NCBI RefSeq assembly: GCF_013366925.1
Contig: NZ_JAALDK010000001.1
Coordinates: 6,384,001 to 6,448,000 of the forward strand
From: Paraburkholderia youngii
GTDB lineage: Bacteria; Pseudomonadota; Gammaproteobacteria; Burkholderiales; Burkholderiaceae
Length of the DNA: 64,000 nucleotides
Direction: 5' to 3'
The notes under the pieces were generated by a model. That model was not told where the DNA came from, did not search any database, and worked only from the letters and a program-made list of their open reading frames with translations. Shown piece by piece: positions 59,515 to 62,102 of this stretch (position 1 is its first letter; each line of letters starts with the position of its first letter). Position numbers and translations under genes: made by a program.

Positions 59515-59566
59515 TTGCATGGGACCCGGGTGAGCGCTGAAGCGCTAACCCGGGCCGACAAAGGAG
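59515..59566 (+). ncRNA. Structured leader element of atpG (copy 1 of 2)
   Basis: A hairpin occupies 59525-59554: lower stem CCCGGGT/ACCCGGG, a G-A mismatch, upper stem AGCGC/GCGCT and a UGAA tetraloop. TTGCATGGGAC lies just upstream (59515-59525), and CGACA plus AAGGAG just downstream, seven bases before the atpG start. A second copy with the same layout precedes atpC. Confidence 0.7.
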
Positions 59567-59572
59567 CAAGCA

Positions 59573-60457
59573 ATGGCTGGAATGAAGGAAATTCGCGGCA
59601 AGATCAAGAGCGTGCAAAACACGCGCAAGATCACGAAAGCGATGGAGATGGTGGCCGCATCAAAGATGCGCCGCGCTCAAGAGCGCATGCGCGCTGCTCG
59701 CCCGTATGCCGACAAGGTCCGCGACATCGCCGCGCACATGAGCCGTGCGAACCCGGAGTATCGTCACCCGTTCATGGTGTCGAACGAAGGTGCGAAGGCG
59801 GCCGGTATCATCCTCGTCACGACTGATAAAGGTCTTTGCGGCGGGATGAACACCAACGTGCTGCGCGCGTCGCTGCAGAGGTTCAAGGAACTTGAAGGTC
59901 AGGGCAAGACGATCGAGGCAACCGCGATCGGCAGCAAGGGTCTGGGCTTCCTGAACCGTCTGCAGGCGAAGGTCGTGTCGAACGTCGTGCAACTGGGCGA
60001 TACGCCGCATCTGGAAAAGCTGATCGGCGCCGTGAAGGTGCAACTCGACCTGTTCTCGGAAGGCAAGATTTCGGCGGTGTACCTCGCGTACACGCGCTTC
60101 GTCAACACGATGAAGCAGGAGCCGGTGATCGAGCAACTGCTGCCGTTGTCGGCGGACCAGTTCGAGCGCACGGAAGAAGACGGTACGACGCCGAACACGC
60201 AGTGGGACTACATCTACGAGCCGGATGCGCAAGCAGTGGTGGACGAACTGCTGGTGCGTTATGTCGAAGCGCTGGTCTATCAGGCCGTCGCGGAAAACAT
60301 GGCATCGGAGCAGTCGGCCCGCATGGTCGCGATGAAAGCCGCTTCGGACAACGCGAAGACGGTCATCAGCGATCTGCAGCTCGTGTACAACAAGAGCCGT
60401 CAGGCCGCGATCACGAAAGAACTGTCGGAAATCGTCGGTGGAGCGGCGGCTGTCTGA
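59573..60457 (+). CDS. atpG: ATP synthase F1 subunit gamma
   Basis: The 294-residue product is the central rotating shaft. The N-terminal helix [32 protein letters not shown] and the C-terminal helix ([37 protein letters not shown]) form the coiled coil inside the hexamer. The centre carries the GLCGGMNTN motif. The start is preceded by AAGGAG and the structured leader element. Confidence 0.97.
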
Positions 60458-60558
60458 CCTCGGTCAGACAGGTCGTTGCGTGTGCGCCCGAGCGGCGCAC
60501 CCATCGGAGAAACTGCGCCTTTGCGCGAGTGAAGAATTGAGTATCTAAAGGAAAAGCG

Positions 60559-61953
60559 ATGAGTACTACTGCTTTGGTAGAAGGCAAGATCGTACAGTGC
60601 ATCGGCGCGGTGATCGACGTGGAATTTCCGCGTGAATCCATGCCGAAGATCTACGACGCGCTCATTCTCGAAGGTTCGGAGCTGACGCTCGAAGTCCAGC
60701 AGCAGCTGGGCGACGGCGTGGTCCGTACCATCTGTCTGGGTGCTTCTGACGGTCTGCGCCGCGGCACGATCGTCAAGAACACCGGCAACCCGATCAGCGT
60801 GCCGGTCGGCAAGCCGACCCTCGGCCGTATCATGGACGTGCTGGGCCGTCCGATCGACGAAGCCGGCCCGATTTCGAGCGAAACCACGCGTGCGATCCAC
60901 CAGAAGGCTCCGGCGTTCGACCAACTGTCGCCGTCGACCGAGCTGCTCGAAACCGGCATCAAGGTTATCGACCTGATCTGCCCGTTCGCAAAGGGCGGTA
61001 AGGTGGGTCTGTTCGGTGGCGCCGGTGTGGGCAAGACCGTGAACATGATGGAACTGATCAACAACATCGCGAAGGAACACGGCGGTTATTCCGTGTTCGC
61101 CGGTGTGGGCGAGCGTACCCGCGAAGGGAACGACTTCTATCATGAAATGAAGGACTCGAACGTTCTCGACAAGGTCGCGCTGGTGTACGGCCAGATGAAC
61201 GAGCCGCCGGGCAACCGTCTGCGCGTTGCGCTGACCGGTCTGACGATGGCCGAGCACTTCCGTGACGAAGGCCTCGACGTGCTGTTCTTCGTCGACAACA
61301 TCTACCGTTTCACGCTGGCCGGTACCGAAGTGTCGGCGCTGCTCGGCCGTATGCCGTCGGCAGTGGGCTATCAGCCGACGCTGGCTGAAGAAATGGGTAA
61401 GCTGCAAGAGCGTATTACGTCGACCAAGACTGGTTCGATTACGTCTGTGCAGGCCGTGTACGTCCCTGCGGACGACTTGACCGACCCGTCGCCGGCTACG
61501 ACCTTCGGCCACCTGGACGCAACCGTCGTGCTGTCGCGTGACATCGCTTCGCTTGGTATCTACCCCGCAGTGGATCCGCTCGATTCGACCTCGCGTCAGA
61601 TCGACCCGCACGTGATCGGCGAAGAGCACTACTCGATCACGCGCGGCGTGCAGCAAACGCTGCAGCGCTACAAGGAACTGCGCGACATCATCGCGATTCT
61701 GGGCATGGACGAACTCGCGCCGGAAGACAAGCTCGCTGTCGCGCGTGCTCGTAAGATCCAGCGTTTCCTGTCGCAGCCGTTCCACGTCGCTGAAGTGTTC
61801 ACGGGTTCGCCGGGCAAGTACGTGCCGCTGAAGGAAACGATCCGTGGCTTCAAGATGATCGTCGAAGGCGAGTGCGATCACCTGCCGGAGCAAGCGTTCT
61901 ACATGGTCGGCACGATCGACGAAGCCTTCGAAAAGGCCAAGAAGATCCAGTAA
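60559..61953 (+). CDS. atpD: ATP synthase F1 subunit beta (catalytic)
   Basis: The 464-residue catalytic subunit has P-loop GGAGVGKTV, the catalytic Glu in [13 protein letters not shown], the DELSEED-like stretch near [27 protein letters not shown], and [31 protein letters not shown]. It lies 101 bases after atpG, and TAAAGGAAA precedes the ATG. It is complete and typical of proteobacteria. Confidence 0.98.
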
Positions 61954-62052
61954 AGGTCGGGTGTAACGAAGCGGGCGCGGGCCTCGCGCATCACGACTGC
62001 CAAAACGGTAGTGTTGAGCAGAGCCAGCGTCTCTTATTACGCTCAACCCGCC

Positions 62053-62102
62053 TTGCATGGGACGGGGGTCAGCACTAAAGCGCTAACTCTCGTCGACAGG
62101 AG
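62053..62102 (+). ncRNA. Structured leader element of atpC (copy 2 of 2)
   Basis: A hairpin occupies 62061-62094: lower stem GACGGGGGT/ACTCTCGTC (two G-U pairs), a C-A mismatch, upper stem AGCAC/GCGCT with one A-C mismatch, and a UAAA tetraloop. It has TTGCATGGGAC upstream (62053-62063), and CGACA then AGGAG downstream, ten bases before the atpC start. Confidence 0.7.

Follow-up and report, generated by a model that had tools for sequence, protein, structure and literature searches.

The window (the whole stretch of 64,000 nt analysed here) contains an ATP synthase operon in which the leaders of atpG and atpC each carry a 46 nt unit, made up of TTGCATGGGAC, a hairpin and GACA, directly 5′ of the Shine–Dalgarno (SD) sequence. 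The two copies are 2.5 kb apart in the one operon, and in both leaders AGGAG and then the start codon come immediately 3′ of the unit. We take the ORF at 59573..60457 to be atpG from operon order and sequence. The features are as follows.

59512..59560, + strand: repeat unit in the atpG leader, GCT plus the 46 nt unit TTGCATGGGAC...GCCGACA (70.2 bits, E 3.4e-11)
59515–59560: the same 46 nt unit without GCT, before the atpG ATG at 59573
59523..59531, + strand: atpG copy, 5′ arm of the lower stem, GACCCGGGT
59533..59546, + strand: atpG copy, upper stem AGCGC, loop TGAA, GCGCT
59548..59556, + strand: atpG copy, 3′ arm of the lower stem, ACCCGGGCC
59562..59566, + strand: resident SD of atpG, AGGAG, directly 3′ of the insert and found in empty sites too
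59573..60457, + strand: atpG ORF (gamma subunit)
62053..62098, + strand: second repeat unit, in the atpC leader, TTGCATGGGACGGGGGT...CTCTCGTCGACA (65.9 bits, E 2.8e-10)
62061..62069, + strand: atpC copy, 5′ arm of the lower stem, GACGGGGGT
62086..62094, + strand: atpC copy, 3′ arm of the lower stem, ACTCTCGTC, with two G-U pairs
62098..62102, + strand: resident SD of atpC, AGGAG, its first A common to the GACA of the unit
62112..62537, + strand: atpC ORF (epsilon subunit), ATG at 62112

The layout of the unit is TTGCATGG, a lower stem of nine columns, a 1×1 mismatch, an upper stem of five columns, a TGAA or TAAA loop and GACA. Both hairpins were found at the coordinates given in a preliminary description of this DNA, and they fold largely as it described. 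Its five-pair upper stem stands for atpG but not for atpC, where AGCAC faces GCGCT with one A·C mismatch, and the lower stem, put there at seven to nine pairs, has nine columns in both copies, with an A·C mismatch in atpG. Single-strand folding against 200 dinucleotide shuffles gave z-scores of −3.43 for atpG and −3.03 for atpC. The minimum-energy fold of the 59 nt atpC leader keeps only the three outer pairs of the upper stem.

Copies in the genome, the genus and the family

A covariance model (R1) was built from 22 related copies. In these same 22 copies 93.8% of the stem cells are paired, compared with 18.6–38.1% in slid controls, 7 of 14 pairs have changed on both sides and GACA is invariant. 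The pairing is not chance, and the earlier observation that it is kept while the stems change is borne out. In the genome from which the window comes, R1 gave 41 matches at E ≤ 1, which we sorted into 24 distinct leader-type copies, 7 copies in 23S–5S spacers and 10 that are the palindrome read again from the reverse strand. Further copies before start codons had been predicted, and by eye 22 of the 24 leader-type copies have GGAG or GAGG within 12 nt 3′ in the sense direction, with a start codon beyond it. Not among these 22 are L095, some 60 nt ahead of a start, and the degenerate nest L117/L313; at L103 the start lies farther away, behind a second SD. The weak matches L308–L311 (E 0.03–0.23) likewise adjoin GGAGAC and a start. 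The exact 11-mer TTGCATGGGAC occurs eight times in the 9.49 Mb genome and seven of these are the element; one copy (L008, the same place as L092) sits in the loop of another.

The element has no match in Rfam at the thresholds, in keeping with the earlier remark that no named RNA family was recognised, and no known Rfam cis-regulatory RNA matched at or above its gathering score; a relaxed search gave two unrelated weak hits only. Elsewhere in the window, positions 42711–42815 on the + strand match the Burkholderia sRNA ncS01 (RF02865) at 91.3 bits.

The 23S–5S spacers (L107, L284 and others on G000:C1) hold an antisense hairpin core, GTTAGCGCTTTAGCGCTTAC, just past the 3′ end of 23S, and it is present at 7 of 7 rRNA places in this genome. 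By eye, diverged forms of the core lie in the rRNA spacers of several relatives and are absent in L288, L294, L298, L299 and L301.

Within the genus there were matches in 57 of 58 genomes (E ≤ 1e-4), from 1 to at least 107 per genome, and within the family in 44 of 120 genomes and 8 of 25 genera (E ≤ 1e-5). Two of 150 genomes of the order had a match, both from the window's own family, and no copy was found outside that family among the 150. The preliminary description was thus right that the element is shared, structured and spread through the genome, and its suggestion of a spread in Burkholderiales is supported within the Burkholderiaceae. The element is not specific to atp leaders, and a control element peculiar to ATP synthase is not supported. 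Matches were also present in 26 plasmid records (Paraburkholderia 11, Caballeronia 8 and Burkholderia 7). Ten of these were examined and only four list genes nearby, two with a sense CDS start within 30 nt (L280 and L283) and two without (L278 and L279). A phage origin was considered and rejected: there was no match to the exact pattern in viral contigs, and the atpG query found nothing in them.

Filled and empty sites, arrays and nests

Eighty atp loci were scanned by pattern and the nearest 48 were scored by hand, the automatic presence call having been too loose. Degenerate copies were counted as present, and a hairpin-less remnant at atpG (L010, where only GCTTTGCATGGGA is left before the SD) as absent. 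Scored in this way, the element is at the atpC site in 17 of 46 operons and at the atpG site in 17 of 45, with at least 10 and at least 7 changes, respectively, on a quick tree of upstream coding DNA (tree-usable rows only). This distribution, with many unrelated genes downstream of other copies, does not support the earlier proposal that the element tunes ATP synthase.

Empty and filled sites can be compared directly. At atpG the empty site runs from ...CTTCGATC straight into AAGGAGCAAGCAATG, whereas the filled site has GCTTTGCATGGGAC...GGCCGAC between the two. The empty atpC site runs from ...CGCTCAACC into AGGAGTCGAT, and an empty etfA site (L261) from ...AGAACG into CGGAGACG, compared with GCAACTATG plus the unit in the copy of the window's genome. 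Among 30 etfA-like loci, 26 leaders were readable and 25 of these are without the unit, possibly with paralogues among them. No target-site duplication was seen at the atpG, etfA or leader-ORF sites, and the element does not show the target-site duplication plus terminal inverted repeats of a classical DNA-transposon MITE.

The full unit is about 49 nt, (N)GCTTTGCATGGGAC-hairpin-GTCGACA, with a longer form that starts GCAACnnnn. Units also form head-to-tail tandem arrays with a period of 49 nt, of up to 7 units in one survey and 9 in another, and half-unit duplications are seen as well (locus L090 of the window's genome). Fourteen nested insertions read (A/T)GCT–unit–GCT(A/G)AAGC, by a pattern that required GCT 3′ of the inner unit and C or CT 5′ of it, so that nests elsewhere are uncounted; by eye, L155 is nested three deep. 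In the nests, pairing between the two outer arms holds at 119 of 126 positions, and outer with inner arms pair at 99 and 111 of 126, so the two outer halves are parts of one unit. Ahead of GCT stands A (8 nests) or T (6 nests) and in no case the C that is usual at that place in the loop, and simple insertion leaves this without explanation.

The patchy occupation of the atp leaders, the clean empty sites, the 49 nt arrays and the 14 nests together argue for a mobile palindrome, and its mobility is well supported by these comparisons. Taken together, the data make it quite probable that the atpG and atpC hairpins belong to a REP-like miniature palindrome that is mobile in the Burkholderiaceae, and that they are tolerated passengers. 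A family that is SD-adjacent, self-nesting and head to tail, with pairs of filled and empty sites, is a readable record of insertion. With it one can test how REPs without a linked transposase are moved, and whether translation is altered by small palindromes at ribosome-binding sites.

Placement, pairing and the means of spread

Placement in the genus was counted at 119 array loci (18 from the window's genome and 101 genus rows), which were picked by score and not by place. At 101 of the 119 the last unit is followed within 12 nt on its 3′ side by an SD-like tetramer. An SD, a start codon and an ORF of at least 60 codons follow at 98, compared with 0 of 119 on the antisense side; the 98 is inexact either way, as false elements among the 18 loci without an SD (at least 6 by eye) were kept in the count and the array-locus pattern missed L095 and L117 of the window's genome, which have no SD. 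The downstream genes are diverse and share no common pathway, and the same downstream gene is found in several genomes, for example the etfA-like, thiolase-like and ‘MRIKLINPNT’ genes. In 87 of 99 cases a long same-strand frame (open frames, not annotated genes) ends within 300 nt upstream, and therefore many copies are probably intercistronic. Directly 5′ of terminator-like A-tract hairpins, not of SDs, is where the unit lies at L028 (Trinickia terrae), L334, L378 and L381.

GGAGA, the main SD type next to the sampled copies of Paraburkholderia-like genomes, is present at 80 of 93 element loci, compared with 30 of 97 in the genus background and 7 of 41 in a second background. In the window, by rough, greedy gene calls, it occurs 6 times at ribosome-binding sites, 13 times elsewhere in intergenic DNA and 40 times inside genes. 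This suggests that the motif alone is insufficient for the bias towards ribosome-binding sites, so targeting or selection adds something unexplained to the sense/SD bias.

One explanation is that insertion is selfish but that copies next to SDs are then kept for a benefit such as mRNA stabilization. We regard this as a serious alternative, although a less probable one. Consistent with it, a start codon follows 98 of 101 SD-adjacent copies, compared with a rough intergenic expectation of 6 in 19, and the same downstream genes recur from genome to genome. The null result for predicted SD accessibility (below), in which no positive effect was seen, and the repeated presence and absence at the atp sites count against it. 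More tentative still is the idea of a 49 nt self-propagating palindrome whose insertion is directed to, or kept mainly at, sense ribosome-binding sites. If true, such a mobile ‘start-site module’ would rewire translation in operons and, in another genus, would enter a leader peptide in frame.

Placement varies between genera: an SD lies 3′ of the unit at 6 of 7 (g10), 10 of 13 (g12) and 5 of 20 (g14) loci chosen by score. When two g14 samples are pooled, the 39 loci divide into 28 of a leader-ORF type, of which 26 are in frame, 7 at an SD and 4 elsewhere. In the g14 genome G090, 17 units share the same 46-mer without a difference, and 16 of them occupy a single position within another repeat. 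Without the insert this position reads GGGGGCAGCGAACGNNNGNGAGCGTGGGGG, a form that occurs 48 times in G090, 8 in G070, 4 in G106 and 9 in G029, and was not found in the four other genomes searched. At most of the loci shown, the other strand of this second repeat carries a short leader ORF, MN-PHAH-RSLPPEGADASLGAARREA. There were 30 filled cases (28 in g14, 2 in g12), and in 26 of the 30 the ORF continues in frame through the insert. In the g14 leader-ORF copies the element is antisense to the leader ORF, and the identical unit of G090 sits in leader ORFs that differ from each other. This placement tells against a universal role as leader RNA and for target-driven insertion. The leader-peptide repeat (L335–L346, in G029, G090, G070 and G106) is itself dispersed and partly tandem, with GC-rich hairpins before a further start codon, and in g14 the mobile unit has it as its target.

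If a transcript were under selection, G-U should be commoner than A-C. Over 155 distinct units there are 1984 Watson–Crick, 68 G-U, 81 A-C and 37 other cells, and in 112 distinct stems G-U and A-C stand at 67 and 70. Without the two column pairs richest in A-C, a hand count gives 58 G-U and 41 A-C, a weak excess only. This suggests pairing preserved to a similar degree on the two strands, as expected of a DNA palindrome, and does not support the mark of a selected RNA fold that had been read into it; by this wobble test an RNA regulator is not supported. At 44 single-copy loci the predicted mean unpaired probability of the SD is 0.470 with the element, 0.470 without it and 0.465 when it is shuffled, so that the hairpin is not predicted to expose the SD. 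The covariation is real but an RNA-level role is thus unproven, and covariation of a leader hairpin is no proof of a regulator. In operons the element is likely to be transcribed, and it may affect the mRNA or translation. Of the translational control element in the preliminary description, the position mostly before start codons in this genus is supported, whereas the one test of a translational effect, predicted SD accessibility, was null.

A cis-acting translational control RNA, whether a protein- or ligand-binding hairpin or an enhancer, recruited ahead of many intercistronic starts and spread by selection for its function, is unlikely. It would account for the 98 array loci that adjoin an SD and start in sense with none in antisense, for the weak, degenerate copies of the window's genome that are still at an SD, and for the upstream same-strand frames and conserved pairing. 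It would not account for the G-U and A-C counts, the unchanged accessibility, downstream genes without a common pathway, the more than half of scored atp leaders without the element, or most sampled g14 copies, which are elsewhere and antisense to the leader ORF.

All 14 genomes tested have a Y1_Tnp protein. A linked transposase was rejected as a candidate, because R1 had no match at E ≤ 1 at 19 Y1 loci (about 3 kb each) from these 14 genomes. A conserved RAYT-like protein is found in 104 of 120 family genomes, among them genomes that lack the element, and its co-occurrence with the repeat is uninformative. This Y1 protein (L163, G000:C1:6717786-6718490) mostly has one match per genome, which suggests a household role. 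A second RAYT-like protein of the window's genome, 61% identical, is at G000:C2:642150-642842. The REP transposase of E. coli is said to cleave near CT.

Spread with no transposase, through replication slippage, template switching and gene conversion between copies, is in our view quite improbable. Tandem arrays and half-unit duplications could arise in this way, as could the antisense core in 7 of 7 rRNA operons, but clean inserts at unrelated sites (atpG, atpC and etfA) where no copy was resident, together with identical units in leader ORFs that differ in sequence, point to transposition-like joining. That a leader was simply duplicated inside the operon, or that the two are alike by chance, can be dismissed, since for all that the two copies are close together in one operon, copies are genome- and family-wide and the atpG and atpC sites are occupied independently of each other in relatives; the pair, described earlier as a duplication, is probably better read as two separate insertions.

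Both an enzyme that moves the element and any function at ribosome-binding sites are inference. Each move would be a single-strand-DNA event with the enzyme acting in trans, and an IS200/IS605-like Y1 protein would be the first suspect. The enzyme may recognize the folded hairpin and its TGTC foot and join the hairpin to short targets, which from a few junctions we read as C^AGSNA, a type to which the SD AGGAGA is similar. Selection would remove copies that land in genes, and copies just 5′ of an SD could persist, as they leave the resident SD unharmed. On this view the atpG and atpC copies would be tolerated, possibly with a secondary effect on the mRNA.

Comparison with known repeats

GTAG REPs and REPINs are short, dispersed, imperfect palindromes with RAYT transposases. 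The element is likewise a short, imperfect and dispersed palindrome with Y1 proteins in its genomes, but it has no GTAG foot and was not found flanking the Y1 genes at the 19 loci searched. The Rfam family naRNA4 (RF02564), which we take to be REP-derived, has two adjacent hairpins and matches tandem arrays of the element weakly. The best score (38.7 bits) is below the cut-off of 59.5, only arrays match, and all 6 matches are on the strand opposite to the element.

Rickettsia palindromic elements (RPE) are palindromes in frame inside ORFs. By description, not by sequence or size, this is like the element in the g14 leader ORF, whereas in the other genera sampled the element is mostly intergenic, before SDs. 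RPE are mentioned in the accessible text of a paper on CGTC-tagged REPs (Di Nocera, De Gregorio and Rocco, 2013; PMC3733652).

The closest likeness is to these CGTC-tagged REPs, in which, according to the accessible text, the tag can also be TGTC and the tail is usually CCA (PMC3733652). The reverse strand of the element reads TGTC-[9 bp stem]...[stem]-CCA: an unpaired tag at the foot of the stem is common to both, the REP stem of 8–9 bp compares with a lower stem of 9 bp, and the CCA-like tail with CCATGCAA after the stem. No dedicated transposase is known for the CGTC REPs and none is linked to the element, and complementary stem changes are reported for them (PMC3733652). The differences are in structure and placement. 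The REPs have A-T at stem positions 1 and 2, whereas pair 1 of the element is G-C in 154 of 155 units and pair 2 is A-T in 120. A loop of 4–5 nt contrasts with a mismatch and a 5 bp inner hairpin (A·A mismatch between the stems in 132 of 155, loop TAAA or TGAA in 144 of 155), and REPs that are mostly head–head dimers contrast with singles or head-to-tail arrays. The REPs are reported (PMC3733652) predominantly downstream from coding regions, whereas the element is 5′ of SDs or in a leader ORF. The name Burkholderia has 0 occurrences in the accessible text of that paper, and no Burkholderia element of this kind is described in the parts of the open-access literature covered, including PMC12306157. 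Our best reading is that the element, absent from the open-access literature searched, is a new REP-like family that resembles the CGTC-tagged REPs.
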